64,000 bases of DNA from Straminergon stramineum (taxonomy: Eukaryota > Streptophyta > Bryopsida > Hypnales > Calliergonaceae): NCBI GenBank assembly GCA_963920665.1, contig OY987273.1, forward strand, positions 16,308,501 to 16,372,500. The letters are read 5' to 3'. A program made the translations under genes and the position numbers. The notes beneath the pieces were generated by a model. It was not told the DNA's origin. It searched no databases and saw nothing but the letters and a program-made list of their open reading frames with translations. Positions 13,126 to 35,557 of this stretch are shown piece by piece; position 1 is the stretch's first letter; every line of letters starts with the position of its first letter.

Positions 13126-13135
13126 TACAAGAATG
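13072..13135 (+). pseudogene. Left half of a RING-gene exon split by the MULE-like element
   Basis: A TGA at 13,069-13,071 is followed by an open frame to 13,135 that ends SDTAYKN in the target duplication. Removing the element and one 10-bp TSD joins this frame directly to the open frame that starts at 35,557 (VRSSHLCFVEK...). A possible acceptor (CTCACAG) ends at 13,100. The continuity is seen in the sequence; that it was a host or TE exon before the insertion is inference. Confidence 0.6.
13126..13135. other. Target site duplication, left copy
   Basis: TACAAGAATG directly abuts the left terminus and recurs perfectly at 35,548-35,557 directly after the right terminus. Ten bases is within the 9-11 bp duplication typical of Mutator-like elements. 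Confidence 0.8.
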
Positions 13136-13180
13136 CAACGACACTAGCGTGCGAGCTTGGAGCGGTGAGCTTGTAAGTTG
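13136..13180 (+). repeat. Left terminal inverted repeat of the MULE-like element
   Basis: Starts CAACGACA, then the 16-bp core CTAGCGTGCGAGCTTG, then GAGCGGTGAGCTTGT. The right end read inward is CAGGGTTG, the same core, then TGAGCTTGTGAG. The identical 8-bp offset of the core from both termini supports the end call. Confidence 0.75.
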
Positions 13181-15807
13181 CGAGCGTGGAACTTGTGAGC
13201 GGTGAGCCCCCAAACCCTATTTTTTTGGAAATTTTTTGGCGAAATTTCTTTTTTCATTTTTGTTAGAAAAAATTGAGGAAACCTTAATATTTATAGTAAA
13301 TTTAGTGACCTATGGCTGTGTACCCTATGACCGTGGATTGTGATAAGATTTTACACTTTTTGGTTTAGGGTTTTAGGTAGCTATGCATTCAGGCTTTCAA
13401 AATTTTGTGCATAGTGCGAAGAATTTATTTATTAACTATAGTAGAGAATATGTAAACTGCTTAATGTATAGTAAACTCATGTCACTTTGGAAATAGTGTA
13501 TTATAATTTTGTGATTGAGTTTAGTTCATGCAGAGAACTGTATCTCCTAAGTATTGCATATGTCTAAGAATTTCCAGCATGCACTAATATAAGAGGGCAC
13601 GTGTAGGATGAGTTGACAATTGATGGGTTTAGGGTGATATAGCTAGGACAAATCCTTGTGGTAGAAAGCTCACTCTCATTTGTAAGTGTATTGCATTGGA
13701 TAATTTTAAATTGTAAGAATTAATCTTAGGTAGAATCTAATTTGATACCACATGTTTACATGTGGCCTGAATTTGTAGAAAATTATAGAAACAAGTGAGT
13801 TATAAAATATAGAACATGTTCTAGAAAGAAATGAAAAAAACAAGCCATGAAAGTGAGGACTCAAATGAATAGAAAGAGTGCCCAAAAAATTGGAAGCAAA
13901 GGAATAGAAAATGAGAGTAAGTATAAAATGGGAAGTGAGGACATAAATGGGTAGTAAATCTAAAGAAAATGGAAGAAAAACTGGAAGTTCGGTAAAAAAG
14001 AATGGAAGAAGAAATGAAAAGGAAATGAAAAACTTTCAAATTAGAAGTGCAAGGGACATAAAAAAAAGGTTAAGGAAAAGGAAATTAAGATGACAAAAAA
14101 TGGGAAGGATAATCCAAAAAAAGAAAAGATTGAAAAGAATAAGAAAGACAACTGAGACAAACGAATTTAGAAAAAACTGAAGTATGTAGGCAAAATATAG
14201 AATGAATGGAATTGAACATAATTTCATGTGTGCGATAGTAAGTTATGATCACAAATTTTGATCATTCATGGGAACATGCTTCAAAACACTTCATGAATGA
14301 CATATATTCTAATACTTAGGAAATGTGGAGACATTTTCAATTCCAAAATCGCTAAATCATTTGAATCATAACATATGTAAATGAATACAATACAAATGAA
14401 GTGTTCTTGAAAAGGAATCCATGCCTATTCGGGAATTGTAATAATTCCAGCTCGAACTAGAAGGAGTTTCAATTCATTGAAGCTATAACTAGGTGCATGA
14501 ATGAATTTGTCTTCATTGACATCCATCTTGCAGAAGTACCTATACAAGTAGTAAGAGTGTTTGCAATTCACGTATTGTTGTCGACCTCCAATAGCAGAAA
14601 CAACCATATTTGTGAAGTTAGGGCATGTGTACGTGGGGAACATGCCAATTGTAATTCGGTAGATGTTTTTGTTAGGGTCTACCCCTATCTCTAGTGAGAC
14701 TATTGCACCTAGGCCCGGTTGGGGGAGTAAGGTCACTCCTAGGATTTGCCCTCTAATGTTTCGTGCACTCTCCCACTTGTTCCATTGCTCTGTAGTTGGT
14801 GCATTTACAATCCTCCGAATAGTTCGGCTGTTCCTTATTGTTGGATATGTTTTTGGGGGTGGTTGTTCAAATAAGGCAGTCTTGAAAATCTTTGACATTT
14901 TGAAAAGTCGACATGGCGACAACATAGGGCGTTGTTGGAGTTGAAATCCCGCATGTTGCAAGAGTAGAGTTTCTTCTTGACTAAGGTGTGTCCCTAATAG
15001 AACTGGCCAAACCTGCAACACAGCTGGCCAATCTATTATCCATTTTCGTTTCGAACCTTTCACACAACGTTCAATGTCATCCCAACAAAACCAGAAGTCA
15101 ACCACCACTTCTCGCTTAGTACCATAATCTACTTTTCTACCTCGATAAGTTGGAGCAGGGTTACATTTCCTTCCTCTTGCAATTTTGGTAGAGCACTCGA
15201 TATTTGACCCCTGTTGTTGAGCATGACATTTAGCATTCGATTTGTGGCTAATCCTCGCAATGTGCCACTTCGATGTATCACAGTCACTTTCATATGCAAT
15301 AGTGACATGTGGACAAATATTTGTATCCGCCTCTTTACCTTTCCCTCCCAACATCTTCGTAGAAATTGTTGTAGACCTCGCATGCACACGCAATTGAGAG
15401 AAATTCACTTTGTCTGATCTATGTGAATCTCTAGCATCTCCTATGGGTACATCTAACTTCCTCTTTGTACTTCCAAAGATCTCTTCTCCTTTTAAATGTG
15501 GTAATCAATTTCAAAGCCCCTCTACTCCAGATAAAGTGTTGAGCGCTTCAGCAATTTTCTTTGGATCTCTACTTCGAGTGGTAGCCCTGAACTTCAATTT
15601 GTTCTTCAATGGACCAGAGCCATGTGCATGACCTCTGAGGTATGCTCGATAATTTTTCATTTGCATCCAAGCACGAATACTGTCATTACAAGTCGCATCA
15701 AATAAGTTGTTTCCTCTTTTTCCGGACATTTGAAGCCACTTGTTATGGACTGTTTCAAATAAATTACACAATGGCAGGTCTAGCATTTCCTCCAAATTCA
15801 ATTTCTA

Positions 15808-16329
15808 AAAATGAACACAAGTTTAGGTAATAGTTAGCACTTCACTTTGAAAACCTCACAGATATTTGTAATTATCGATTGTTTCGTGGTCAAATGAACA
15901 TGTCCTATCATAAAATGAACGATATTCAAAGACAATTTCAAATACACATATATGACTATATAAAAATACAGCAACACAATCTTCTTTCAACTTCTTGGTA
16001 CAAGGAAGTACTCATATTTTACATGAGGACTCTAAAGAATTGCATGTTCCTTTAAAGACATCCGAAAGAGGGGGTCTAGTAAACACCATGAAGAGTTTCA
16101 TCAGACCCGACATATGCTCTTTTATTGTTTGGTAGACCCCCTCTTCTGGATACCTATGAAGAATAGCTTAGAGAATTTCAAATTATAAAATGAAGTTCTT
16201 TCGGTATTCTACATCACTAGAAAACAAAATAAAATATATGGAGCAACATAAGTTTATCTTTGCATTATTTGGTGTGACACCATCAAAAATTGAAATCCCC
16301 TTATGCATAGAAATAAGTACTTTACTCAC
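15808..16329 (-). other. Intron in the MULE-like transposase
   Basis: Donor GTGAGTAAA follows codons for GGFMDM. The acceptor TTCATTTTTAG precedes AAATTGAATTTGGAG (KLNLE). Both junctions are phase 0 and the 522 bases between are AT-rich with no sensible coding. The border call is by eye. Confidence 0.6.
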
Positions 16330-17789
16330 CATGTCCATGAAGCCTCCCCACTGTCGATAACGAAAATGCCAAAATGCTAGCCAATGGTCTAAGCGATGAA
16401 TTGCTTCTTCGTTTGCAGCTCCGGTTGATAGCCACCATGATCGAATTGCTAGATAACGTGTCTCTGCCTGATCCATATTTTTGGAATCTTTGTATTGCTT
16501 ACACAGAGAAATATGTTGTTGTTGAAGCGTTTCCTTGATGTACTTTTGGGAGTGTTTATGAAGAGAACTACTCCAATGTAGCAAACAGGTCCTTTTACGA
16601 TTCTCCATTTCCTCATTGGCAGATCCGTTGCCATAGACAATCCGGACCGCATTCCAATTGGCCATAGCACTATCTACCATAAATCCTTTAAAGTTTGGAT
16701 TTGGTACTCCATGTTGTGCCATGACAGTGTTTAAGCTCCTCCAAAATTGTACTTGCACCTTAGTATCTTCAAACTGCATATCACACACTACAATAGTCAT
16801 CACCTTCTTGTACTCAACATCATACATGTGGCAAGCCATTGTGGTCCACTCCTTCACACGCTTCACTTGGTCAAACATCAACCACACATTATGTAGATTA
16901 CCTCCGACTTGCATGCGCCTTACAAGGTCCACTCCACTTCCGGGTCTTTCTGTGAGCATTTTGAAGATATAAACCTTCTCCTTTCCTTGGCCAGGGAAGA
17001 CACTATCGTGTATGAATTTGAATTTTGACTCCTTCTTCATAGTCATAATGTCATCAATGATCCCCCCTCAATTGTTTGAGCGGAAAGAAGCGATCATGTT
17101 CCGTATATTTGGACTACTGAGATATTGGAAGCGGTCCATAACCTCCTCCATTTCCTACCCCTTCAATAACTCCTTCTCTCCATCTCCATTGTGAAATAGA
17201 TAGTTCGTTAAGAACTCTTTATTAGCGGATAGAGCAATCATTGAGTTTGTAGCCGATGGTGTTCTAGCCACCTGTTCTTCAATGAGTCCACAAATTTCCT
17301 CCGTAGAATCTCTATACATGTCCTTTGCCACTGGGTGGTTGTGCTCTCCGAAGTGAATAGCGGCCCTACTCATTTCTGGGTTGTTACTGAAAGCATAGTA
17401 TATCCTAGCATTGCAAGGGCTAAGACATGAAGGTGGTTTCCTACACACTTTGCAAACTAGGGTATTGTCTTTGGGAGGTCCATCTCCAACTACAAAAGGA
17501 ATCGATGTGAAGCCACTCCACTTTGTTTCGTTCCTCTTTGAAGTTCTGTTCAAATAATCATAGTTTGGGTTCACACAAGCAAGATGGCCGACACAGTGGA
17601 ACTTACGAAACTTGAGGTTGTTGGAGTTGTTGATATTTGTGGTGATGAGCCTACACCACAGGTGTCCATCATAGCGCTTGTCCATTCCTTCCAAGTTCCA
17701 CGCCGATGATGAAGACGAAGTGGAGTGACATGGTGGTATTTCAAAAATGATATCTCCATCAAATATTACTACAAGAAAATAGGTGTTTT

Positions 17790-18625
17790 ATGACTACAAA
17801 AATATGACTGAGGATGACTGGCGACTATTTGCAATCATATTTTTGGAGGCCAACTCTTTGAAAAAAAATATGACTACAACTATGATTGCTAGTCATGTTT
17901 TGGCCTTATACGTTGCGGGTGTATAGTATATGTTCATTGGGAACTCCAAAATACTTCGTAGAGCTTCATAGGGAACATGTTTGGGGAATGCACAGTCATA
18001 TTTATTAGTCATATTTTTGCATTAGTCATATTTTGTAGTCATATTTTTATGATAATCACATTTTTTTTCTTTTGGACAACTTGAAGAAAATTTGGGCAGG
18101 AAATATATTTGGAGAGTGCTAAATCATATTTGTTAGTCATAATTTCACTTTAGTCATATTTTGCAGTCATATTTTTGAGTCAATCATGTTTTTTAGTTAT
18201 ATTTTTATGATAGTCACATTTTTTTTTCTTTTGGGCAGCTTGAAGAAAATTTGGGCGAGAAATATATTTGGAGAGTGCTAAATCATATTTGCTAGTCATA
18301 ATTTCACTTTCGTCATATTTTAGAGTTAGTCATATTTATTAGTCATATTTTTGCATTAGTCATATTTTTGAGTCAATCATATTTATTAGTCATATTTTTG
18401 CATCAGTCATATTTTGTAGTCATAATTATTAGTCATATTTTTGCATCAATCATATTTTGCTATCATATTTTTATGATAGCCAAATTTTTTTCTTTTAGGC
18501 AGCTTGAAGAAAATTTGGGCGGGAAATATATTTGGAGAGTACTAAATCATATTTGCTAGTCATAATTTCACTTCAGTCATATTTTGCAATCGTATTTTTG
18601 AGTCAATCATATTTTGTAGACACAT
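17790..18625 (+). repeat. CACTA left subterminal repeats
   Basis: Repeated TTAGTCATATTTTTGN and AGTCATATTTTGC motifs spaced about 15-40 bp, within larger duplicated blocks of about 150-250 bp that begin near TTCTTTTGGGCAGCTTGAAG (18,067, 18,226, 18,490). Such dense subterminal repeats are characteristic of CACTA ends. Confidence 0.75.
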
Positions 18626-20989
18626 TTCTTTGGAAGTTGTTTTTTGTTTCTTTGGTGGGAGCTTGAGGAAAAGGTTGGCAATCTAAGATGGGTCTTCTAT
18701 ATTTTGTCCCTAGAGGCCATTCCTTGGGATGACTTTGTTTAATACCTATTAAAAAAATTATTTTCTTTTATATAATGTGTCTATTACAGAATTAATGTCC
18801 GAATAATTTGGGATGGTGCATGTTCATATTTTAATTAATATATTTAAAATTTTTATAGGAATTAGAAAAGGAATAGAGAGGAAGAAAACAATTAATAATA
18901 GGAAATAATCAATTTTTATTTGAGTATGTAAGAAAAAATTAGAGAGGAATAAAAGTCTATGGACAAACCAAAGCACCAAGGTAGGACTAAGCTTGAGAAT
19001 CCAAGATAGAAATCGGGCCTGTCTTGATTCATTATTGGAATTTGCTGTGGAATTTGCTAATTATGTTAATTGATTGTGATGGCTAATGCAAAGCGAAATC
19101 TAATGCATTTGAACTAGTAATGTAGATTGAAGGCTGTAGAGTTTAGAAAAATTACTTGAAGATTGGAAAAAATCTAATCCAAAGAGAAGAAAGAACAATG
19201 TGAGAAAAATTCATACCCGAGTGGCCATGGAGCAAGAGTAAGTGAGGAGTGCGATTTGTGTTGAGAGTCTCTAAGTGTTTCAAGAAGAAACGTAGGTTCA
19301 AGTTGCTACTTCAAGCATTGGACATGATTAAGAGACTAATATGACCCCCTTATAAGGATTTGACTATGTATTAAACAAAGATTGTTGATTATAATACACG
19401 TAGTTGATCAAATGAATTTTTCAAGTCTTAAGTAGATATTTAGTTATCACTTACAAGGTTGATGTTGTTACAATTGTTTGATTCTTAGAGTAATTAGAAA
19501 TCAATTAGTAGTAGTAGAAGTCAAAGATTGCAATTCTAAACCATTTCAAAAAATGAAGGAAAAAAACAAAAAATGTTGAAAATAATTTGGAGAAAGTCAA
19601 GAGGGGGAAGTAGAAAGAAATAGGTTGAAAGAAAAGAATGAGATCATATATCTAATTTATACTCCTTGTTGTAAAAGTTGTTATTTAAGTTGTATCCAAA
19701 AACACAAAAAATGTAACAAAAATGGATTAAAGCAGACTTCATGATACAATTACAATATACATGTTGAAGAATAGGGATGTTGTGGAAACAAATTTCAAGG
19801 CATGTCCTTAAATTTGGTACTTAGTTTATTCTCTTCTTGTAGAAACTATAGTTGTGCTAGAAATTAGAGATTTAAATCAAACTTCTAAGAATTTGTTAAA
19901 TTTAATTTGGAATTCAAGAACATTTCATTAATTTGTAGAGGATTCCAATAACATATCACACTTGAAAAAATAGAGAAAAACTATGGAAGATAGAGTACGA
20001 TGAAATTGGATAATCTATGGCATTAGTTTTGGATAAAAAATACCAAAGTTCATCTAATTCAAGTAAAAAAAGGAAATTTGAAATTTAGTGACATTTAGAA
20101 TTCAATTTTGAAAGTAAGAATGAATTTAAAATTATAGGTTAAGAGAAAATGTTGGATGAAATCTTGAAGGATAAATTAAAAACAAACCTTCATCGATCTA
20201 TATTTTTTTGCTAAAAACATTTCCTTATAAATATCTTCACGATTTTAGAATAAGCTTGCAACGTTCTACAACTTAAATTAAAAAATTTTAAAATTTCTCA
20301 ACTATGATTTGGAAGTCAAGAGTTTTGACTATAATTGGTCAAAACCATCTAAAACCTTTGACTTTTATAGTTTGAGTGTGTTTTAGTTTAGATGTGAATC
20401 ACTTATAGTTTATCATTAGAAAAAAAATTGTTCATTGCTTAGAATACCCATTGAACAATATTTAAATATCCAACTTAGGATTTGAAGTTCAACAACAAAA
20501 AATATAGTTGTGTTTATTTTATCTCAAGGATATAGATAAAACACTCATATATATCATATATTGAAGTTTGTTTTCTTTTTTAGAAAAGTTCTCTATAATG
20601 TCATATAAGCCGTATTTATAAAGAATCTCTATAGAGTTGTTTAGAAGTTATAGAATTATTTATATGAAGATTGAGGCTCACTGTGATATACATGGTTGAA
20701 TTGCAATTAAAAGATGGTTGTTTGAATGTTTCTACAAGGATATAGAATATAAAAACATAATGCGTTTTAAAAAATTCAAAGATGTTTTTCAATATTGGCT
20801 CTATAAAATACTTTTGCTCTTATATACTTAGTGCATGGACGTAGATACTTTAATTCATACATGACTTTTTTTTGCTATAACTATAGGTGCTTAAGTCCTT
20901 GTAACTTCCCTTTATACATTTTGTAGAGTTGTATTGCAACATACATCCACTTTGTAGCAAATTTTGTTGTTAAAATAACTTAATTGTTT

Positions 20990-21990
20990 AGTATAGTCAT
21001 ATTTATTGACTCCCATGACTATGTCAAGTCGCATGACTAGAGCAAGTCATGTACATGACTAGGGTTTTAAAACCCTAGTCGCCACTTCTATGTAGCCGCC
21101 ATTGATTTAGGGTTTTGAAACCCTAGCCGCCATTTCTTCTTCTTCTTCTTCTTCTTCTTCTTTGCTTTTTGTTGCCTCTTACGTTTTGTTTCTTGTTGTT
21201 TTCTAGCTCTTGGTTCTTCTTGCCTCCTAGTCCTTACTTTTTGTTTCTTTTTAGTTCTTGATTTTTGCTTCTAGTTTCTTCTTGTTACCTCTTAATTCTT
21301 GCTTCGTAGTTCTTACTTTTTGTTGCTTCTTAGTTCTTGATGTTTAGTTTTTAGTTCTTGATCTTTGCTTCTAATTTCTTCTTATTACCTCTTAATTCTT
21401 GCTTTCTAGATCTTGATTCTTGTTTGAAGTTTCTTCTTGTTACTTCTTAATTCTTGTTTCTTAGTTCCTACTTTTTTTGTTTCTTAGTTCTTGATTCTTG
21501 TTTGTAGTTTCTTCTTATTACATCATAATTCTTACTTCTTAGTTTCTACTTTTTTTGTTTCTTAGTTCTTGATTATTGCTTCTAGTTTTTTTTTGTTCCA
21601 TCTTAATTTTTGCTTCCTAGTTCTTGTCTTTTATTGCTTCCTAATTGTTACTTTTAATTTCTTTTTGATTCATTTTAACTTGTGTTTCTTGTTTTTTTTA
21701 ATTCTTATTTTTTCTTGTTATTTATTACATTTGATTGCATCTTAAATTGTGTTTTTTGTTGCTTCTTGTTGCATCTTAGTTCTTTCTTCTTCTTGTTATT
21801 TATTGCATCTTAAATCATATTTCTTGTTGCTTCTTGTTACCTTTTAGTTCTTATTTTCTCTTGTTATTTGTTGCATTTTCTTCTATTTTATTGCATCTTA
21901 AGTTGTGTCTCTTGTTTTGTTTTGTAGCACCTTAATTCTTACTTCTTCTTGTTTATTATTACCTCTTAACACTTGCCACCTTCTAGTTTT
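20990..21990 (+). repeat. Telobox palindrome followed by long CT-rich degenerate repeat inside the CACTA
   Basis: At about 21,056-21,082 is a perfect palindrome GACTAGGGTTTT/AAAACCCTAGTC, followed at 21,111-21,135 by a second AGGGTTTTGAAACCCTAGCCGCC. Next comes (TTC)n at 21,136-21,162, then ~850 bp of degenerate repeats of TTCTTGTTGCTTCTTAGTTCTTG type, and a GTGTAGGCA-like border near 22,170. AAACCCTAG teloboxes followed by a pyrimidine leader resemble promoters and 5' leaders of plant housekeeping genes, so this may be a captured promoter. No downstream coding exon was recognised. Confidence 0.4.
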
Positions 21991-22559
21991 TGTTTCATTT
22001 ATCACTATTGTTGTTATTTCTTCTTATTTATTTATGTTTTCTAAAGATATAGTGGTTACGAATTTTTTCTTACTTAAAACTTGTGCTTCATATTTTTTGT
22101 TGCCTTGAATCTTTGAAGGTTGAGCTATATTGTTCATTCACTAAAAATTAATCCCCTTCATTGTATGTGTAGGCACTTAAAGCTGGATTGAAGTTATTGG
22201 AGGCTACTTACAACACTTGAGAAGCAACTTCTTCAAATTTCAGTAAGAAATATAGGTCCTAGAGCTTATAGGAATATACACTTATAGAATGTCATTGTCA
22301 TATGTTTTGTGTTAGTGACTATTAAATGCCATTGAAAAGAGTCACATTTTTTATGGCATTTTTTTCTCTTTAATATGATTGTCTCTTATGCATCTCAAAA
22401 ATCATATGTACTCAATTTTTATTTGATGGAATCATTTATTTAGCTGCTAAACCATGTTGATGCATGATTGCAATGCCTCAAGTCGATTTAGAATGTATGG
22501 AATATGATTGTAGTTTATAACAAAAGCTACTATAAACCTCAAGTCATCCCAATTATAAA

Positions 22560-23440
22560 TATTACTTGCTTGAGTCATATTTTATAATATATTTTAGCCA
22601 AAATATGACTTGTTGTAGTTATATAATACTTACAATCATGTTATTAATGTGACTCTATACTTTTAAAATTATGACTACATTCAATCATAAAATTACAAGT
22701 AATATTCCATGTGAACTACTACATGAACTAAAATATGACTTACATTAGTCATATTTCACATTAATAAAATTATGACTCATGAAGGTCATATTCCACATCA
22801 AGAAAAAATTATGACTTTCTAGAGTCATTTTTACATCAACATGTAGAGCATATGACTCATAAAAGTCATTTTTCATAATCACAAAAAATATGACTCACGA
22901 AAGTCATTTTTCACATCAACCAAAAATATGACTCATGAAGGTTATATTCCACATTAACAAAAAATACGACCCACTAGAGTCATTTTTACATCAACATATA
23001 GAGAATATGACTCATGAGAGTCATTTTTCACATCGACAAAAAATATGACTCATGAGAGTCATTTTTCTCATCAACCAAAAATATGACTCATAGAAGTCAT
23101 ATTCCCCGTTAATAAAAAATATGATTACATAGAGTCATATGCCACATGAACCAAAATATGACTCAACATAGTCATATTCCATGTCAGCCAAAAATATGAC
23201 TACATGGAGTCATATGCCACGTAGACTTTTTTTTTTTTGCCCGGGTAGTTCAAGGAAAAGTCAAGACTTCAAGGATAGTCAACATATACGCCACATAGGC
23301 AATATACGGCTAAGTATACCCCCAATACAAATGACTGCATATATGACTCATGAAAAATTTGACTAGTCGGTAATGACTAGACCCAGTCATATCGCGCATC
23401 ATCTACAGTGTTTTATGTCTAAGTCATATTTTGAGATTTT
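22560..23440 (-). repeat. CACTA right subterminal repeats
   Basis: About 15-20 units of AAAATATGACTCATGAAAGTCATTTT type, each with internal dyad symmetry (ATGACT ... AGTCAT), spaced 40-50 bp. Orientation is mainly opposite to the left block. Confidence 0.75.
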
Positions 23441-24079
23441 ACCACTCATTGTAGTCATTTTTTGCAGTTATAAAACACCCATTTTATTGTAGTGTATTGC
23501 TGGAAGAAAAGCAACATGGTGGTGCTTCATGACGTTAAAATCCATTATAGACAGTTCGTTCCGAGATCGATGTATGTTGGCTAGTCTCTTCAAACAATCT
23601 ATGATATTTACTCTATGGATTGGATACGGATGCAATAGAGGACGAGGCAATGAGGATTGCAATTGACTACTTGATGGACTCTCAAATGTAGAGTTCAATA
23701 GAGCCCTTCCAATGATTGTAGTTCTAATAGAACATCCTGAATGTTTGACAGTCAATTTAGGAGACTCTCCTTCCGATTCACTAGATAGTTCTATAATTGG
23801 ATCTAATTTCTCTATCTTTATAGCATGAAGTACTGAAGGCTTTAGAAGAACCTGAGGAATTTGAGGATTTCCACTAGGTGAAACAACGTGCTCTATATAT
23901 GGCATATTTACTGTTGAATTGTCTGATTGCCGACTCAACATCTGAGTGGAAGAATCTAGCATGGAAAGAGGGAGTCCATATGCCCTGTAGTTCCTAGGGG
24001 AAAGGTACCAACAATGTCCTTCATCTTCTGCAGATTTGACAATAGGGACAAATTCTTTCACTTTGCTTGACTCCGACAT

Positions 24080-24965
24080 CCTTTCTTCTTCAACATAGAT
24101 GGAGGACTCTACAAATCTAAATCAGACGTGGAGAAGGTGACTAAGGACTCTAGCACATCCTCCATCTTTTATGGGAAACATAAGAGGTACCTCATGACCG
24201 TCCACTCGAATGCAAGCCATCTCGAGAACTCGTGTATAGAGTAATGAAATGGAGACCCGTAATCCTTAGCATTCGATGGGGAAGAGCAAAATTCGAAAGA
24301 GCTCAATGGGTTGATCACCGTCAATTATATCAAACTGTAAAATAGTACTAGTAGTCTGCTCAGCATTTAGTGTCCTCCTTACCAATAGATCTTTCAAATC
24401 TACTTTTGCCAAGCCCTTCACCACCATCCACTTCTATTACAGTACTATCATGTGTTGCCATGTACATTGAATAGCTATTGACATGCAGTGCAATCGACAA
24501 GTACTAAATTACTGTTAGTAGCTGTCATCCGCATTCAAAAAGTATTGACCCTCCAACCATTTAATCTTTTTTTACACTAACCGTCATCTACTACAAATTC
24601 TGACCATGCCAACCCTTTCCTAAGCCGTCTTTAACACCCTTTTTTGGGAAGATTCATAAATGCATGGTGGCCGCCCCTTGGACGTCATTGGAGTTCATGG
24701 AATGTGTCAGATTTCCATATGGATTTGGTGGCCTTGAACTATGATTGTTTACGGCGCAACAAGCTAGCTTTTATGTAACACTTTGTCACTACAAATACAA
24801 GCCTCTGTCATCACTGAACTTTCATTGTGACATTGTATGATTCTAGTCCATTCCTTTGAACTTTACAAATAGAAACCATTTCTGCAAGGTAGAGCCATTG
24901 CATACTTTCAGTTCTAAGCACTCGCCGGATTTTAGAGTGTTAGATTCTATGTAGTCATCTTTTTC
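24080..24965. promoter_or_regulatory. Divergent spacer between transposase and ParB-methyltransferase-like genes
   Basis: About 890 bp separate the two divergently oriented start codons, so any promoters of both genes should lie here. I see no unmistakable TATA or known operator. Position is the only evidence for a regulatory role. Confidence 0.35.
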
Positions 24966-25271
24966 ATGTTTGTAGAGAACTTGGGCACGTCCATTCCTAG
25001 TACGTTGTTGAGAAGGAGGAAAAATAGGCGTCGATCTTTGTATTTCTCATCTCGTAAGGAACTGCAGAGATCTAGAATGACTCGAGGGAAGAAAGTCATG
25101 TCAAAAACAGGTCAGTCTATACCGGGCGACCTTCGCAAAGCAATTCGCTTCACCACCGGAGATGGGAGTGGGGAAGACACTGTTGGAGCGAAGGACTTGG
25201 AGGTATTGCAAGAGATGTCAGAGGATACAATAGGAGGACAAGATGAAGGACCGCAGGAGGTTGCTGCTTCT
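24966..25271 (+). CDS. First coding exon of the ParB-methyltransferase-like gene
   Basis: 102 codons from ATG 24,966 to a donor GTAAGAACC, ending phase 0, which matches the next exon at 28,447. It is basic near the start (RRRKNRRRS, a possible nuclear-localisation patch) and acidic later (EMSEDTIGGQDEG). A later ATG at 25,077 is an alternative start. Assignment to this gene rests on phase, orientation and position across a 3.2-kb intron and is inferred. Confidence 0.45.
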
Positions 25272-26277
25272 GTAAGAACCTAGCAAAATCATTCCTCCTC
25301 TTTAGTTTGTTCACAATCATTGCATTTCATGGAAATTCGATAGCAAAGAACAAATGTGTTTCAGAACCCTTCAACTCTTCATGTCATTTTCTACTCCATT
25401 GTTCATGTAAAATTTGTTCTCTATATTTAAATGACTATAGGCCTCTTGTAGTTCATGCGTGCATTAATTAAAGAATCTTTACATGAGTAATTTGTGGAAG
25501 TCACCTTCAAAAAATTTGAGCTTCTCCTATTGCACTTATCCTATTTCATGTATGCCATCATTCCGTAGTGAATATGCCATTGTGGGAAGTAGGTCTTTAA
25601 AGAAACACAAATTTTGGACAATGACAGCGTAAATTTAGCCTTGCCTCTCTTTCTGTAGCCAACAAAAGTAGAATTTTGTATATGTTTAGGGTATTTGAGG
25701 AACATAAAAAAAAGAAGTTTTCTACTTTGAATGGATTCAATTCAAATCATCTAAGAATAGAGAAGATAAGGATTTCAAAGGCAGGGACTAAGAAAGATGC
25801 TTCATCCTTTAGTTTCATTAGATTTGTGGAGAATAAAAACATATGAGCACACCCTTACAAGAGCCTTCTTTGGCAAGTACACAATTTGATTGTGGTTGTA
25901 TTCATATCTAATTCTTGCATTTTCTGTGTATACTTCTATTTAGATTCAGAAACGCTCATTGTATGCTAATGAGCCAAATTTAGAGAAAGGCATATTTGGT
26001 CCCTAAGTCCTCTAGAAAATGAAGGATGTATTTGTTACAGAAGACAACAAACTGTAAGTCATTCTTAGAAAATGTAATCTTAAAAATAAAGAATATTATG
26101 AATCCTAAAATAAAATAAAGGACAATTTCACTATCTAGTATAGAAAAAATTGAAAATAAAAGAAAGTATTCAAGGGAATTGAAAATCCCATAGGTGTTCA
26201 TTAATCAATTTTCAATTGTTGACTTGATAGCAGCTTCATTTTCTTCTTCTAGAATTTGCTTTGCGTGCTCTTCGTTC

Positions 26278-27215
26278 CTGTGAAAGTCGCATGCCTTTGG
26301 GCAGGGGCTCGATCCCCCTTAGAATCAAGACAGTTCGAACTTAATCGATTAATTTCCAGAATCAAGACAGTTCAAACTTCATTGATCAATTTGTCTAGGA
26401 AGTCCAAGATCCAAATCCCGTAGGTCGACATAGGCGAGCTTGGTTGACTGTTAGATCCGACGTCTTCATCGGTTTGGCCAAGAGGACCCCCATGAACTAG
26501 TTTTCCTTTGTCTGTGAAAATCGCATGCCTTTGGGCAAGGGCTCGATCCCCCTTGGAATCACCATGACCGAATACCCTAAGTTACGGTACAGCTCAAGAG
26601 CTTGATGAATCCTCACTCATGGTTGAACATTTTAGCACAAATGCTTTTAAAGCTCCCCTCCCCATGCTCAGGGTGAGACCAACAATCGTGATTTGATGTT
26701 CCATATATTTTGAGCAGCAATTCTATGTTTGAATTATTTAAGGGTCAAATCAGTCTCCATGTCCGATTGTGAATCGATTTTCCAGAATCAAGACAATTCG
26801 AACTTGATCGATCAGTTTGTCCAGGATCCAAATCCTGTAGGTTGACGTAGGCGATCTTGGTTGATTGTTAGATCCGACGTCTTCACCGGCTAGGCCAAGA
26901 GGACCCTGCGAACTAGTTTTCCTTTGTTTGTGAAAGTCGCATGCCTTTGGGCAAGGGCTCGATCCCCCTTGGAATCACCACGACCGAATACCCTAAGTTA
27001 CGGTATAGCTCAGGAGCTTGATGAATCCTCACTCATGGTTTAACATTTTAGCACAAATGCTTTTAAAGCTCCCCTCCCCGTGCTTAGGATGAGACCAGCA
27101 ATCGTGATTTGGTGTTCCATATATTTTGAGTAGCAATTCTATGTTTGAATTATTTAAGGGTCGAACCAGTCTCCATGTTCGACTGTGAATTGATTTTCCG
27201 AACCCCGTGGACCAT
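26278..27215. repeat. Tandem repeat, ~417-bp unit, in intron 1 of the methyltransferase-like gene
   Basis: The phrase TCGCATGCCTTTGGGCA followed by AGGGCTCGATCCCCCTTGG occurs near 26,287, 26,522 and 26,939. The last two units are offset by about 417 bp and match over the whole unit; the first has an internal deletion of about 180 bp. The stretch GGGCTCGATCCCC resembles a pol III B box (GGTTCGANNCC), so a tRNA-derived origin is possible but unproven. Confidence 0.65.
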
Positions 27216-27530
27216 CTGCCTTTGGTACTAATCCAAGTTTTTTGGTAAAATTCGGTGATTTAATAGCACTGTTAGAAGTACCTGCGGACTAATATGGTTT
27301 TCACTTGATTATTGGGCTTTATCCCATAAGGGAACTTTAATCAAATTTTTTATTTGATATTTCAAGAGTTAATTTCATGAGTTTCCGACTTCACCTCGTC
27401 AATTAATAAGGATTCTTCACAACTTCATTATCTCAATTAATTTGGTCATTTTGCTTGTCCTAGTCAGATGTAATGAAAGATATTTTTAGGTTCAAGAGAG
27501 AGATTATTTTGGAAAACGAGAAGAAGAACT

Positions 27531-27611
27531 AGGGGTCCAGTAAGGATACATTGGACTATTGTCAAATCCGACAGTACTTCCATGAGCCCTTCTTGGACCC
27601 CCAAAATCTGG
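27531..27611. repeat. Miniature hairpin element, copy 1
   Basis: About 80 bp with inverted ends (AGGGGTCCAG ... CTTGGACCCCC) and a central dyad GTCAAATCCGACAGT. Same design as the copies near 27,765 and 31,311. Lies in intron 1 of the methyltransferase-like gene. Confidence 0.65.
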
Positions 27612-27763
27612 TTTTATGTGATAGATATTTACATTTTTTTTTAATGTAGAAGAGTGAAAACAAATATATTTTGTTAGCTTCAGTTTTAAAACATAAAAAG
27701 ATTTAGTGTAGCAATTTTCTAACTAAAAAAACAACAAATTATAGTATCCTTGATGTCATGGAT

Positions 27764-27848
27764 GTTGGGGGTCCAGCAGATGCTTCACACTATAGTGTCG
27801 GATTCGACGGTCTAGTGTCAATCATCTGCTGGACCCCCAAGATCTGGG
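27764..27848. repeat. Miniature hairpin element, copy 2
   Basis: Ends GGGGGTCCAGCAGATG and CATCTGCTGGACCCCC form a perfect 16-bp inverted repeat around a core with GTGTCGGATTCGAC. About 84 bp. Lies in intron 1 of the methyltransferase-like gene. Confidence 0.75.
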
Positions 27849-29166
27849 TTTTGTTTTCTTTGTTATACAATCTTGACCCTGTGATCCCAAACATGTGGTA
27901 TTCTCCATTCTTCATAATTAAATTTTAATTCTCCAATTTCCAAGATCTCTTACGTTTGTTTTGGTTATTTAATATTGACCGTTACATATTTTACTATTGA
28001 CCCTAATTTTCTCTTGAATATAAGAAAACATATTGATCTTTTTGAAGTGTACATTTTAGGATGCTTCATGTTAGTAGAATCATATGCATTGTTTTGAAAA
28101 TTGTGAATGCTAGATCTTTTAAACCTATACCTAAGTGGTCAATTCATCTTACACCATGTTGACATCTTTGCTTATTGTACATTGTAAGATCTTTCAAATA
28201 ATAAGAATGTTTGATGTTTTAATTTCTAAGATTTCCTCACACAAAAGCATGTTCGTATTGAAGTTTGTGAATGTTTCAAATTCCAATGAGTACTTCTATA
28301 AGTACTCCATTGAGCCATTTTTTAATCAAAATTTCATTACTGTGTTGTGTGAAGATGTTGAGGTTTCATTTTGGTAGATTTGAGATTGACTTTCTAATTT
28401 ATGTTTTGACCCATTATTTGTGTGAAATGTGTTGATTGAAAAATAGGGAGGACGTAGAGGGAGTACAACCACAACCGCTCTTCAACCTCAAACTCTCCCA
28501 ATTGCTCACAAAGCAAGACCATCTCAACCTTTCACATCAGCAAACAAAGCCATGGAGGTCTCCAATGACTCCAAAGAAGAAGAAGAAGCTGATGGGGAAG
28601 ATGTGGTAAGTTTCAATGATATCATGGATGTTGCTGACCGTGTTGCAGATGCTTTTGAGGTCTCATGTATGAGTCGGGTGAGTGACCCTGATGCGCGTAG
28701 ATGTCGTGAACATCTTGCTAGAATGCTAGAGTTTTCCAGATGCAGGACAACCGTAATGTCTCTTGAGAGTTCTGAGACAGGATATAGCTCAGAGAGTCAA
28801 GTATCCATTACTATGGATGGGCCAATGTGGGAAGACACATGTCAATGTCATCTTAGCACAATTCAAGGTAGACAGGAGGTTGTCATCATTCACCTCAGTT
28901 CCGACTCGGAGGGTGATGTAGACATTGATTGATTCCATTCACTTGGAGTCATTTTGTAAACATATTGATTCATGCCCTTGCATGTCTAATTCATATGATT
29001 TTTCTAACTATTTTGAATTTATTAATGGTTCAATTGTACTTTGTTATTGCATTTGTAATCCTTGAATACATGTTAGAAATTAGGAATGTGCATCTTTCAA
29101 TTTCAAATAGATTTCTTTTCCTAAGTTTGTGAATGTTGATTATCTTTTATTGTTATACACAAGTAG

Positions 29167-29843
29167 ATGGATGTGTCTCCCACATTGTTGTCACAAGATG
29201 AGACCATCATGGAGACTCAAATCAAGAATGACACCCCTCAACCGGACATTGAAGGTGAAGACGAAGGGGAGTTTATAGAAGAGGATGTGGTGGTAGATGT
29301 CTTGGAGGAAGAAGACAAAGACTTGGATGAGGACGACTTGCGCTCATATCACAAGGTAGATTCCGTGAAGACCATCGCTTCTCTGAGGATGAAGCCCGAC
29401 CATATGTTTTGATTGCAAATCCCACTATGTCGAATGGTGGCTATGCCTATGGTGAGGCCAACACTTGCATGTGATTTGAAGTTGCTTGAGCAAGAGTTCA
29501 ATAAAGGATACCGTGATGGAGCCGCAGTTTTTTATGTCACCACCACAAACGAAGCTGGAGAGAGTTCCAAATTCATGGAAGAGGAGATGGAAGGGTGGGA
29601 TCCATTGTGGAGAAAGAGGAATGCCATTTTCAATGCCCAACTTGAGGCCATTCCCAAGTTGAGGTTCTTGAAAAATCTGAAGTTCTTTATTTGTGATGGT
29701 AATCACAAGCTCCTTTTGTGGATGACTCATATCACCAGAAAGCACTCAAAGGAATGGGATTGGCACTATGCTATGGACTCTATTATTTTAGATACAAAGG
29801 GGAAGACAGAGTTGGTCATGCATGTCATGCATGACATAAATAA
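29167..29843 (+). CDS. ParB-like exon (frameshifted)
   Basis: Follows a plausible acceptor (ACAAGTAG) and ends at donor GTAAGTAATC, joining in phase to STEESHVKTN in the next exon. It starts with an acidic stretch. From about 29,360 to 29,490 the convincing protein (FREDHRFSEDEARPYVLIAN) is in another frame, while the start and end share one frame, so two opposite shifts are implied. Then YRDGAAVFYVTTTNEAGESS and the ParB/sulfiredoxin-like FFICDGNHKLLLWMTHI, ending VMHVMHDIN. ParB-fold proteins have a D-G-x-H-R-x-x-A box here; K replaces R in this copy. Confidence 0.55.
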
Positions 29844-31310
29844 GTAAGTAATCTATGCACGCTTTGTGAATTTGGCATTTAATTCAATTTAGAATATCAC
29901 GTGAAAATGATGCATATGACTTACAAAACCCTAAACAATATTATCTCTATAAATTGTAGGTCTACCGAAGAGTCCCATGTAAAGACCAATCTAGTCCATA
30001 CTTTATACCGGGTTCAAAAGTATGGACTACTTCCCATCGAGCACTTCAACAAGATGTTGAGGCCATCAGAGCTCAAATGGTGTGGAGCCCCCAAAACCAA
30101 AAAGACTTGGTACTCTATGCCACTAGAGGTCTTCACAACATTTCTTTTTTGGGTGAGAATTTTTTGGATGAAGATCACCCTAATTTTTTGTGGCTTCTAT
30201 TTGAACATAGTTATTCTATTATATTTTGACATTGATTTGAATGTGCTTGGTGTATTTTATTTTGGCTTTTCTCTTCCTCAATTATTTGAATTTATTTAAT
30301 TTATTGGATGTGTCTAGCAAGAGATAGCTCATACAATGGATGCAACACTACGAAAGTACAATGAGATCACCCCAGAGCAAGAGAAAACTCCCGAGGGACT
30401 CGCACATCCTATGAGAGGTGGAGCAAAAGAGAAAACAGGCAAACTTAATGTGAAGATGATGAAGTTGGTCGCAGTGGCTAATCCCGCACATAAGATGGGA
30501 TTTTTGGAAGAGGTAAGTTTCCTGCATGCATTATGAATATATGACAATAGTCTCATATGGAGTTCAAATTATAATTGACATTGTATATCTTTTGAGAGCA
30601 GGTTGAGAAACATTGGAGTGCAAATGAGGTCCCTGAGATGACTCTTGAGAAACTTCAAATGGTGGCCACATGCAACACCACTCCTTTTCACAAGACCGAG
30701 TTTCTGAAGTGGTGGAACTCCTCGATACCTTCATATGATGCTAGATAATTTCTGCCAAGGCCCGTATTCGAGACATTGTTGGACCCTTTCTTAAATAGAT
30801 GCGTTTGGTATGCCGGGGTAAGTATTTGATTTGTAATCATTTTGATTTTAAGAGCTTTAGTATTTTCAATTAATGAAATTCTGTATTTTTATAGTTTTTA
30901 TAAAGCAATATGTATATTTTGAATGTTAATTGATTTAAGTTGTTTACAAATTGAAGACGCATCTATAGAATACTTTGAGAACGTGGTGAGGCAAGACCAA
31001 ATCAACATCAACATGAATGTTCCACTCCAACCTGAGACCTTGGCCGAATATATAGAAGGTTGGAGGAGGAAGATTGGGGATCAAGGCTTCATGGCCCACC
31101 TTAGAGGAACAAACTACTTCAAAAAAAGTGACAATTTTATGACTTATGAGGGGTTAAAGCATGCGGTGCGAAGGGTGCTTTTTCGGTATGCTCAAATTAT
31201 TGTCTAATGATTTGATTTATCATATTTCAATACTTTCAATTCTATAATGTTTAGATTTCTATTGACCCCTAAACCCTAAACCAGAAAATAGACAATGAAA
31301 GAAAGTACCA

Positions 31311-31396
31311 AAAATGGGGGGTCCTTGAGGTACCTTCCAAACCATTGTCGGATCTGACAGTGGTTTGTGAAATACTTACTGGACCCCCCATTTTTA
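31311..31396. repeat. Miniature hairpin element, copy 3
   Basis: Inverted ends AAAAATGGGGGGTCC and GGACCCCCCATTTTT with core ATTGTCGGATCTGACAGT. Lies in the intron between exons ending 31,185 and starting 31,560 of the methyltransferase-like gene. A telomere-like CCCTAAACCCTAAACC sits about 30 bp upstream. Confidence 0.75.
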
Positions 31397-32353
31397 TTCC
31401 CTCTAAACTCTTCAATGTAATGTTTTGAGCTAAATTTCTATTAAGTTAAAATTCATGTTCTCATGTAGTATTGCATGAAGTTCAGAGGTTGAAATAGTAG
31501 TCTTGCCTTCCTTGATATTTTGCTATTGATCATCGATGTCATGCTTTCTTATTTTGCAGGTACTTCAAGCATGAGCTTGAGGCAAAAGGGGCAATTGCAA
31601 GAAAGGACTTGCCTCCATTCCTCTCGAATTTTCTCGATCGTAGTTCTACAGATTGCATGTACACTATGAATCAACTCCAAACATATACCACAGCTCACCT
31701 CAGTGGAGGCGGATGGTACATTGATTGTCCCATCTCATACACACATCTGTTAGAGGTTGAATTGCAAAATTCTTTGGAGGAAATTGGAACTATTGACATG
31801 GACGTGGACGAGTTCGTAGGGTTGACTGATAAACAAAGGGAGAGGGCCATTGTGAGGAGGGAAAGCAATGACAAGAGGAAAGTAGCTCGGATACAAGTTG
31901 CTTTGGAAAACAAAGAGAAGAAGGAGGCAGAGCATGTGGCCAAGTTAGCAGAGAAGGAGAAGGAAAAGGAAAAGGATGACAAGGCCAAGACAAAACGGAA
32001 GAAGAAAGAAGATAGAGAAGGTGTTGTTCCAACATCATCGACGGTAGATCAAGGCTCACAAATGGAAGCCAGAGCACACAATGGGATGAAGAGGAAGGCC
32101 GTATTGCCGGAGTTCACCAAAGAGATGGTCACCCAAGGCACACAAGTGATTGCCATAGGTGATGATGATGACGAGACATTGGAGGAATTAGTGCTCAATG
32201 TCTCTATTGTAGACGTCGTTGACAATGAAATCAATGAGGGTCCAAATTGCTACACTGAAGTCATGGACTTTCTCAAAAAGGTAAATGAACTGTATTATTT
32301 TGTAATCTAAAGTTTCACTATATTAGTACATTATCACACCTTCTACATAATAG

Positions 32354-33416
32354 GGACTCACAAGTTTGAATTTGTTATGGCATATGGCGGTAGGAAAGGC
32401 TAGGGTGTATAATGGGGTGGTCAATCAATGGCCAAGATTTGACCTCATGTTATTCGACTACCAAGAGAATTTGCCAGTGCCAGGGGGGTCCTTTCCAAAA
32501 AATCATGTACCTTATTGGAACTCAGATCTAGAATACAACATGATCTATCAAGCATTTTTCTTTGCACAAAAGCATTTGCAAGATCATGGTTGCATTGTGG
32601 TGTTCCATTTATGGAGCATGGATGCCAAAAGCACCATTGTCGGATTATGTCAAGAGTACCCCAACATGGTGAAAAAGAAAGAGTGGATGGGCATGAATCG
32701 AGTGCACTTGACGTCTGCTATTGACAAAACTAGCACGGTTCGATTTTATACATTCTTCAAAATTTTGTTTGCATTTCTCATTTCATAATTCTCTTGAACT
32801 TCTATTTTATATATGGCTTGTTTTATGTCTGCAGACTTTGAAGTTCGGCATCATCCTCTTAGTAAAAGATCTAGGTGCGAAAGGAAAGTCCAACTTCTTC
32901 TTCAAATGCTCGACAACGATGCTGAAGGCCAAAGTTGACCTCAAGCGTGATGACTTGTTGATCAATTACACCACTGAGGACTCCATGTTGATGAACAACA
33001 TGGATCAAATGCCATGGCGCGGGGCTTGAGAGAAGGACGCCCGATTCATCCAATTTATAATTGAAGGAACTACTAACGAGGGAGACTTGGTCCTTGATTG
33101 CACAATATCTACAAGTTAGTTTGGCTTTTCAAAAGTTGGTTTTCAATTTCTATGTCATACACAAAACCATTGAGGTATAGATTTATGGGTTTTTTTCAGG
33201 TGCCTCTATTATAGCATGTCGTGCAACAGGACGCCACATTGTGGCATTGGAGTCGGATCAGACAATTTTTTCATCTATCCTTGAGCCCATAAAGAAGACC
33301 ACTCCTCTTGTCGCAATAGTTGAAACTATTGAAGCGCTTGCGGTTGTAGCGTCACAAGATTCAGATGCCATGATCATAATACCTCGCAAGTTCATTCACC
33401 GAGCTAGACCTAGTAA
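32354..33416 (+). CDS. Methyltransferase-like exons (motif IV region, then motif I region)
   Basis: Three exons (32,354-32,737; 32,835-33,114; 33,200-33,416) join in phases 0, 1. The first carries FDLMLFDYQENLP (place of DPPY), FFAQKHLQDHGCIVVFHLWSMD (hydrophobic strand typical after 'LKPGG') and ends ... AIDKTST. The second starts TLKFGIILLVKD and ends EKDARFIQFIIEGTTNEGDLVLDC. The third starts ASIIACRATGRHIVALESD. The classic motif I is D-P-F-x-G-S-G; here it is D-C-T-I-S-T-S. A TGA at 33,027-33,029 interrupts it. The layout, rather than single residues, carries the assignment. Confidence 0.6.
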
Positions 33417-33899
33417 GTAAGTTTCTCCATTTCTTAATTATTGGTTAGCATGGTAATTGTAATGCTTCACGATTCTAACATTCAATGATTTGTGTTTGCA
33501 GTAGTGAGGGATTGATGTCCACAAATATAGTTAAGAAGAGAAGAAGACTTCTCTTGAGTCCGGAGAAAATGTTCAATCTTCCAATGTATGCAAAGCAACT
33601 AGCTTCAGCATTTGCAGAGTTTGGTACTTCAAAACCCAAACACCGTAACCCTTCATATGCTTTAAATGTCTTACAATTCATAGATGGATTAGCATCCGAG
33701 GGAAAAGAGACCACAGATTCTTCTAGTGACATGGATTTTGCAACAGAGTCTACTACTACTTAGGCTCATGAGATTGACATATCTTATGAGTCAACCCATT
33801 ATGTTTTGATTTTCTTTGTGATTGGTTTTGTGTGTTTTATGGCTACATGTTGTGTGATTCATTTTCTCTTCTAGTCAAGTATCATCTACCATGTCAAAA

Positions 33900-35300
33900 A
33901 TTCTACTATAGGGTCTGAAGAAGTGAAATAAATGTACACTATTCCAAGTGCGAAGTGTTTGATGAGGTGTCTAAATAAAAAAATATATTTTGAAAAAGAA
34001 ATAAATATTCACACCAAGCGAAGTGGGTTCATCCTAGAAAATGACCCTAAACCAAAATTAGAATAAGTAATGAATCATATCTAATGAATAACCCTTAGAT
34101 AAAGATTTAGCAGTTCACACCAATTATAGTGTTAAATTCCAAAACCCTATTAGATAAAATAAAAAAACAAATCACACCATTCAAAAAAACTTTTTAAAAT
34201 GATTAGTTCTGGAAAATCAAAATAAACTTCCAACAACCAAAATGTCTTATGAAGGACATTGGGGTGTGGAAAGTGCCAAAAATTATTCCCTAATACCAAT
34301 CATAGATCTTGAGCCAGAACTAATAGGTTCTATTAAAATAATTATACATAGTAACAAATGATTTATAATAAGAGGAAATTCGGTGTCAAAATCCTAAGCC
34401 CTAATTATGCTATCCTAGAATTCTTCGTAGAATAAAATAGGGGGTCAAAGAATAAATTATTCCAACATGAGAATCTTCCTAATCAGAATAGAGTTTGGAA
34501 AAAAAACACATTTCACAACAATCATAGTCTCTTATCCCAAAATAGATGGTAAAATAAAAATGTCTATACACTTATCTCTAAACATTAAACCACCAAAAAT
34601 GGATGTAAGGAAGTAAATTACATTCATGCCAGAAGTCCAAAAAGTCTTCATGAAAAAAAATAGGGAGTGAAAAAAAATTACCAGAACAAAAGAGTCTCCA
34701 TGAGAAAATCTTGTGTGTGATAAATTATGAACATAACAATAGTAATAGAATCTTCATAAACAAAATAGGGTTTGAAAAAAAATAACAATAGTCAAGACTT
34801 CATGAAAGAAATAGGGTGTGCCAAAATCATACCCTAGACACAAGAATCTTCATGCCCAAAAAATTGTGAAACAAAATTACATTGCAACGACACAAGAGTC
34901 TTCATGAGGAAAAAAGGGTGAGAAAAAACATTAGAACAATAGAGAGTCTCCATAGAAATATATTGAGTGTGAACAAAATACATTACAACCACATCTTTGA
35001 CTATTCGTCTTCATGAACAAAAAGGAATTTCAACATTACAACACAATTGTATTCATGTGTTAGTATTCAAAGAGAAAATCAAGTCAATCCCACCTCAACT
35101 TGGAACACCAAAAAAATGGTGAGAATGAAAAATATATCCACATCATGTAGAGAGCCTCCAAATAAATAAAGAGTGTCAAAGGATAAATATATTCTCATGA
35201 CCCAAAGACTCTTCACGACTGATAAAATGGTTTCATTTCAAAGGAATATTACACCAAAAAAAGTGTCTTTCCAAAAAAATTCCAATGTGAGAAACTGACA
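33900..35300 (+). repeat. Degenerate ~60-bp tandem repeats in the right subterminal region of the MULE-like element
   Basis: Between about 34,600 and 35,280 the phrase AAGAGTCTTCATGAAAAAAAT, then AGGGTGTGAAAAAAATTACAAC recurs roughly every 50-70 bp with many substitutions and deletions; weaker copies extend to 33,900. There is no coding potential. Subterminal repeats like these could be transposase-binding arrays. Confidence 0.5.
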
Positions 35301-35502
35301 GATGGGTGGGTTTTAAGTATACCCTAAACCCTCTACCGGATGCAAAATTAATGTCAAAGTATTTTTTCCTTTTTATGTTCATAGATCACTCAAAAATTGA
35401 GAAAACAATGAAATAACCTTTCAATAAATTCCATATTTAGTGGAGCCACGGTAATAGGTACATCCACGGACATGGGTACCTCACTCTTTTTTTCCACTTT
35501 TA

Positions 35503-35547
35503 TTTTTCCCACTCACAAGCTCACAAGCTCGCACGCTAGCAACCCTG
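35503..35547 (-). repeat. Right terminal inverted repeat of the MULE-like element
   Basis: Complement of the left core at 35,524-35,539, with the terminus at 35,547 directly followed by the second copy of TACAAGAATG. Matches beyond the core are partial. Confidence 0.75.
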
Positions 35548-35557
35548 TACAAGAATG
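35548..35557. other. Target site duplication, right copy
   Basis: TACAAGAATG, identical to 13,126-13,135. It also begins the downstream open frame, which continues the left exon fragment in phase. Confidence 0.8.

Follow-up and report, generated by a model that had tools for sequence, protein, structure and literature searches.

The 64,000-nt stretch of the Straminergon stramineum genome analysed here (OY987273.1, positions 16,308,501-16,372,500; "the window" means this whole stretch) contains a transposon at 13136-35547, bounded by a perfect 10-bp target-site duplication. We are highly confident that it is one decayed member of a family of large IS256/MULE-type elements, present in many copies, that carries a ParB/methyltransferase-like gene together with its transposase gene. 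The left terminus (13136-13159, plus strand) consists of 8 bases followed by the 16-bp core CTAGCGTGCGAGCTTG and is also found in other copies. In the right terminus (35524-35547, minus strand), the core is inverted at the same 8-base offset. Within the window, the first 15 bases of the core are unique to the two termini. Subterminal GTGAGC/GCGAGC repeats follow the left terminus up to ~13210, and the terminal inversion is composed of the 16-bp core at its 8-base offset and such subterminal repeats. The target-site duplication, TACAAGAATG, is read directly at 13126-13135 and 35548-35557. The inverted core and the flanking duplication described in the initial annotation of this DNA were both confirmed. 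However, the reverse complement of TACAAGAATG also occurs at 40648 and 42648 in the window. Because of this recurrence, the duplication in the window alone is weaker than it appears, and other copies were needed for proof.

Copies were searched for in the 326-Mb, 59-contig source assembly with the left end, the methyltransferase-like exon and the main transposase exon as queries, giving 330, 219 and 576 candidates, respectively. The best 40 for each query were scored, and the window copy was among each 40. Base 1 was kept in 35 of the 40 left ends, one started at base 3 and four at bases 33-44; the query contained no flank and these counts show only the retention of the end. Ten left-end copies were fetched with a 20-kb stretch each. 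Their left flanks outside the terminus were all different (10/10). The right end was reached in four of them, with lengths of 17,884, 17,894, 19,105 and 19,368 bp. Each of the four has its own 10-bp duplication, perfect in three (GTCTTCCGTC, CACATTTGGG and GCTCACAAGC) and with 9/10 bases matching in the fourth (ATCGATAATT/ACCGATAATT), so that with the window copy included all five copies with both ends read carry a 10-bp duplication. The uninterrupted length is ~17.9 kb (two copies), and the window copy without the nested insert described below comes arithmetically to 16.7 kb.

There is modest evidence that the element inserted into an exon of a gene. When the flanks are joined with one copy of the duplication, a 116-codon open frame appears in one of the three frames, which is a supporting sign; it is modest because the left flank contributes only ~21 codons. 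The possible interrupted exon would be 13072-13135 joined to 35558-35844, and a downstream frame at 36288-36809 may belong to the same gene. Neither the joined frame nor the downstream frame matched a Pfam family at E up to 0.01.

The transposase gene lies on the minus strand. Its first and main exon begins with a start codon at 24220, runs to 23495 and resumes at 17766. The first part (23495-24220) contains one in-frame stop, and the second part (16330-17766) contains a predicted zinc finger, an RNase H-like core and further in-frame stops; across eight copies the main exon has 2-8 stops per copy. The C-terminal exon or exons (14425-15804, minus strand), located from a P0005 match at 15801-14458 and from other copies, also contain in-frame stops and have a Cys/His pattern that we take to be SWIM-like, with no profile match. 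Nested within the main exon, and splitting it, is a CACTA-type element 5,728 bp long (17767-23494, minus strand). This insert has CACTA termini (CACTACAA at one end and TACTACAA at the other) in 42-bp inverted ends that are 88% alike, a 3-bp ATA duplication at 17764-17766 and 23495-23497, and subterminal repeats, as CACTA elements do. It was not present in any of the eight fetched stretches spanning its site. Its base composition is strongly biased to A and T, numerous subterminal repeats are of the AGTCATATTTT type, and tandem arrays lie further inside; no open frame within 17767-23494 was recognised as a gene.

MULEs have target duplications of 8-11 bp, inverted repeats that are usually long and are absent in some families, and a zinc finger, e.g. 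FLYWCH or SWIM. The 10-bp duplications of the five copies fall within this range. The predicted catalytic core appears to be of the IS256/MULE RNase H type: its best structural match, at 8-12% identity, was the bacterial insertion sequence ISCth4 (PDB 6xgw, 6xg8, 6xgx), a member of the IS256 family, and such a core is as expected for a MULE-like element. Other fold matches listed below ISCth4 (RAG1, integrases, Hermes and ubiquitin-like domains) were not used for classification. A Pfam scan at E up to 1 found no transposase family in 8/8 relatives. The MULE-like class given in the initial annotation therefore stands, while its exon layout had to be corrected for the CACTA insertion and its SWIM domain is without a profile match.

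The second gene is divergent from the transposase gene (plus strand, 29167-33765). We propose ten exons, with splice-like borders common to most aligned copies at most junctions; the window copy has lost one splice acceptor near 32383. The upstream exons (29167-29841, 29961-30153, 30318-30512 and 30602-30820) encode a part that is ParB-like by motif only. The label rests on this motif, DGNHK at 29695 in the window copy and DGNHR in 6/9 copies read, and on its location in the gene, where ParB-methylase fusions would have the ParB part. Middle exons including a charged linker follow (30950-31190 and 31560-32281). The permuted methyltransferase-like part (32384-33420) comprises the motif IV exon, an exon at 32835-33113 and the motif I exon at 33201-33420, and the aligned copies place the last exon at 33503-33765. 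In-frame stops number 3-8 in each copy read over most of its length and 1 in one partial copy, excluding one intronic apparent stop per copy at the motif I exon edge and a further stop in a copy whose tail is lost, where it lies in that tail. With in-frame stops in both genes, the window copy is dead.

Judged from its sequence, the second gene encodes a C-terminal part that is divergently related to the permuted N6/N4 methyltransferases. PF01555 (E 1e-4, a match below the curated cut-off) and PHROG 18293 (E 4e-8) were matched in the motif I region. The nearest named relatives were found in Ceratodon purpureus as the hypothetical proteins M758_1G310400, M758_9G084500 and M758_6G158200. One of the three, P0001, matched the window gene at E 3e-42 with 32% identity over 30% of the query; the other two are encoded on different chromosomes and share 91-92% identity with P0001 across the region searched. 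These proteins belong to the same family over the middle and methyltransferase-like parts, and their annotated models lack the ParB-like part; structure prediction for the Ceratodon protein was uninformative (mean predicted local distance difference test score of 28). When phage records were searched by tblastn with a Ceratodon protein, the best 20 of 61 had E of 0.002-0.09, and 17 of the 20 hits fall on genes annotated as a methyltransferase or methylase. A profile built from the window piece and Ceratodon, compared with one of five phage enzymes, gave E 1.8e-9 across both motif regions, and Ceratodon alone gave E 3.8e-8 with only the motif I region aligned; both values are from single comparisons. 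The order of motif IV before motif I and the likeness over both regions are those of N6/N4 DNA methyltransferases. Of the two likenesses named in the initial annotation, profiles gave matches for the methylase, that to PF01555 being below the cut-off, and none for ParB.

The catalytic motif of N6/N4 methyltransferases is (D/N/S)PP(Y/F/W). A DPPY-type signature was found in none of 11 sequences (eight element copies and three Ceratodon proteins). The phage enzymes have D-x-P-Y (5/5), whereas the Ceratodon proteins have DAPE (3/3) and the element copies D-Y/C-Q-E (in one of them the third place is a stop) or, for subfamily 2, N-C-Q-E; the window copy reads DYQE at 32456-32467. Glu at the fourth place is thus common to all eight element copies covering the site and to all 11 sequences with Ceratodon. 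The glycine pattern in the motif I exon is also altered. Because the catalytic motif is replaced, we class the protein as methyltransferase-like and not as an active methyltransferase. Classical methylation by this protein is doubtful for the same reason, and the self-methylation suggested in the initial annotation is not upheld in its plain form.

The two genes recur together. A divergent transposase exon lies at most 40 kb upstream of 26 of the 40 methylase exons (best 40 of 219 against best 40 of 576), with a spacing of 10.4-13.6 kb in 24 of the 26 pairs. Random placement (n = 1,000, with guessed extents for contigs C4, C5, C7 and C10) gave a mean of 0.15 pairs and a maximum of 2. Pairing was seen in 16/23 methylase exons at ≥92% identity and in 10/17 at 87-88%. 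Among the best 40 left ends, a listed methylase exon was near 21, a transposase exon near 24 and both near 16. Both genes were present in the window order in 7/10 fetched stretches, one of which ends before the methyltransferase-like part, and a subfamily-2 copy, 80-88% alike in the gene exons, carries both. In the other three stretches (C2:34590707, C6:16172343 and C2:14842660), the second gene was not found within 20 kb. These are cut by later insertions, with the transposase itself split in two of them and a later part displaced in the third, and are evidence neither for nor against carriage of the second gene. Fourteen of the 40 methylase exons had no partner among the best 40 of the other list, and one of them (C11:14409754) proved to have a transposase once fetched. 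These observations show that the element moves jointly with both genes. Copies of the transposase that never carry the second gene, named in the initial annotation as the refuting result, were not the pattern found, and the recurrence between similar termini that it had asked for was observed with different 10-bp duplications.

The ratio of nonsynonymous to synonymous substitution rates (dN/dS) was estimated by the Nei-Gojobori method between each subfamily-1 copy and one subfamily-2 copy. For the second gene it was 0.14-0.19 (8 comparisons), against 0.85-1.45 in a shifted-frame control (two copies), and divergence was 26-27% of sites in introns and 15% in exons. Single exons gave 0.06-0.27 (three comparisons), including 0.18-0.22 for the motif IV exon and 0.09-0.12 for the next exon, except for the motif I exon with 0.54-0.70. 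The transposase main exon gave 0.21-0.26 (7 comparisons). Within subfamily 1, mean values were higher, 0.47 for the second gene (28 pairs) and 0.54 for the transposase main exon, as expected with decay of copies after insertion. Because of the low ratios between subfamilies, we conclude that the second gene was maintained by selection while the family was active and is equipment of the element, not a passenger, in agreement with the initial annotation. C-to-T changes unique to one of seven second-gene copies amounted to 0.315 per site at CG, 0.299 at CHG and 0.104 at CHH. The roughly threefold excess at CG and CHG resembles the trace that plant-type cytosine methylation would leave; it fits a plant host and suggests past methylation of the inserted copies by that host.

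The initial annotation recognised only two genes in the element. Two long divergent genes are indeed present, but a short acidic open frame of 126 codons (28552-28932, plus strand) is conserved between subfamilies, with dN/dS of 0.21 in one comparison; one minus-strand frame was as low (0.20) but has internal stops. It may represent a third element gene, or else a 5' exon belonging to the second gene. Conservation among copies extends to the region 24936-25283, with dN/dS of 0.44 (one comparison) against 0.49-0.71 in five other frames, and was not called as coding since its ratio is near that of the other frames. Between the divergent genes lies a tandem repeat (about 26279-27199, with 1.9 copies of a ~416-bp unit at 26402-27199), whose copy number varies among element copies: 3.9 units with a period of 426 in copy C9:86803 and none detected in 4/9 copies. 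A DNA-binding accessory protein might use this repeat as an array of targets. G(T/C)GAGC motifs number 3-6 in the left 300 bp of 10/10 fetched copies, a count made without a control, and were also seen by eye at the right ends of four copies.

Elsewhere in the window, hAT-like transposase regions occur at 39091-40809 (minus strand; DUF659 and hAT dimerisation domain) and 58819-59481 (plus strand; DUF659). A frame at 8245-8715 (minus strand) contains DUF4218 (E 2.5e-28), a domain that occurs in CACTA elements. A protein kinase domain frame is found at 49095-50117 (plus strand; E 8e-13) with other long frames nearby; the two of these that were scanned matched no family at E up to 0.01.

Accessory genes of this kind have been described in algae. 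PMC12477816 presents Sola1-1_Ec32 from the brown alga Ectocarpus, a transposon of 21.5 kb in which a ParB-like/N4-N6 methyltransferase gene lies on the strand opposite the transposase; further cases, from green and red algae, are cited there. The present element is likewise a large DNA transposon with a ParB-like and methyltransferase-like accessory gene on the strand opposite the transposase, but is of the MULE type and from a plant, whereas Sola1-1_Ec32 belongs to the Sola1 superfamily, a comparison made by domain names only. Location, orientation and the methyltransferase part match the algal genes, and the ParB part matches by motif only. The initial annotation considered such a gene unusual in a plant; this needs qualifying, since the kind of gene is already known from brown, green and red algal transposons. 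Among the literature titles and abstract openings listed (in one listing the first 20 of 336), none concerned a ParB-methyltransferase gene in a land-plant transposon, which is not proof of absence. VANDAL21/Hiun, an Arabidopsis MULE, carries the anti-silencing gene vanC; according to PMC5735166 and PMC6446971, VANC induces methylation loss and its targets often form tandem repeats. Our element is similar as a MULE-type carrier of an accessory gene with a variable intergenic tandem repeat in some copies. ParB or methyltransferase likeness is not part of the description of VANC in those texts, and the two are set apart by description only. In phages, the ParB fold is frequently fused to an N6_N4 methyltransferase, and its most common eukaryotic representative is sulfiredoxin (PMC12704722). 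The second gene resembles the phage enzymes in permuted motif order and in alignment over both motif regions, and differs in its Glu at the fourth place of motif IV and in being a plant gene with introns. Pattern searches for relatives matched 17, 8 and 17 stretches in viral contigs and 101 in bacterial genome contigs, with none confirmed in either set. A plasmid search with window positions 13000-20000 gave no match, and a Wolbachia phage record consulted for a ParB-methylase comparison had none annotated.

We consider it probable that the second gene serves the element's own fitness, as purifying selection points to a function serving the element. Our preferred explanation, held with moderate confidence, is that of a decayed IS256/MULE-type family whose accessory protein binds its own element and aids it, most likely without base methylation. 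Members of this cut-and-paste family are ~17.9 kb long when uninterrupted and generate 10-bp target duplications; they contain the gene of an RNase H-fold transposase with a predicted zinc finger, the divergent accessory gene and the short conserved frame. The accessory protein may bind the element's own DNA via the ParB-like part and the former methyltransferase fold, and may help at the transposition complex or interfere with host cytosine methylation. It would most likely do so without classical base methylation, because constraint on the protein persisted despite the change in its catalytic signature. A non-methylating DNA-binding role taken by itself is plausible, though we propose it tentatively. 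A more speculative possibility is that a phage-type DNA-modifying enzyme became a non-methylating, sequence-recognising factor of a land-plant MULE, its fold being selected for DNA or cofactor binding after loss of the catalytic signature, and that it guides transposition or counters host cytosine methylation.

The second protein might instead still methylate the element DNA as N6-methyladenine or N4-methylcytosine, promoting transposition or shielding the element from silencing. The fold in permuted order, the constraint on the motif IV exon and the next exon, and the activity that the authors of PMC12477816 predict for the brown-alga protein are consistent with this. We find it rather unlikely, since no DPPY/NPPY/SPPY-type motif is present in the 11 sequences and the motif I exon, with its altered glycine pattern, is the least constrained; the changed motif IV makes classical methylation less likely. 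Similarly unlikely is a transposase helper without an epigenetic role, which as an additional DNA-binding subunit would bring the ends together in the manner supposed for mudrB-like accessory proteins. The terminal G(T/C)GAGC motifs, as putative binding sites, would suit such a helper, and several MULEs are known to have accessory frames (PMC6446971). The same text reports that MULEs capture host genes, and the second gene apparently has introns, as might a captured passenger of the Pack-MULE kind. This is very improbable and was set aside given the purifying selection between subfamilies, the pairing in both of them and the existence of multi-copy relatives spread over three chromosomes of Ceratodon. 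A chance resemblance between the termini of two unrelated elements, one nested in the other or the two abutting, would fit the abundance of nested elements in the region, among them the CACTA insertion, and the two further occurrences of the duplicated 10-mer. We set this explanation aside as scarcely credible, because other copies show the same succession of left end, transposase, second gene and right end, each time between 10-bp duplications of another sequence.

Several points weigh against our preferred explanation. The selection test depends on a single subfamily-2 copy, and the paired copies at C1:19.09 and C1:19.17 Mb have identical spacings and may be one duplicated segment. In-frame stops occur in every copy read, which leaves present-day activity unproven, and the heavy CG/CHG C-to-T decay implies that any anti-silencing would have protected inserted copies only briefly. 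The PF01555 score of 22.8 bits is below the curated cut-off of 26.7, and the match is weaker for Ceratodon (E 0.0024-0.034). The upstream part had no ParB match in Pfam, PHROGs, NCBIfam, PDB sequences or phage tblastn. A missing DPPY-type motif does not prove that catalysis is lost.

The accessory-gene kind itself is known from algae; new are the inferred plant host, the MULE-type carrier, the evidence of selection and the altered catalytic motif. ParB-methyltransferase accessory genes were previously noted in algal transposons of other superfamilies, as a possible class of proteins binding and marking the element that encodes them. From a many-copy plant case of the MULE type, with measurable purifying selection in its past, it would seem that different carriers have acquired the association repeatedly and that it is maintained; the altered catalytic motif offers a testable alternative to self-methylation. 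If the host is a moss, to which the Ceratodon relatives point, the second gene would also provide a natural candidate for an epigenetic factor directed by sequence, in a tractable haploid-dominant plant.

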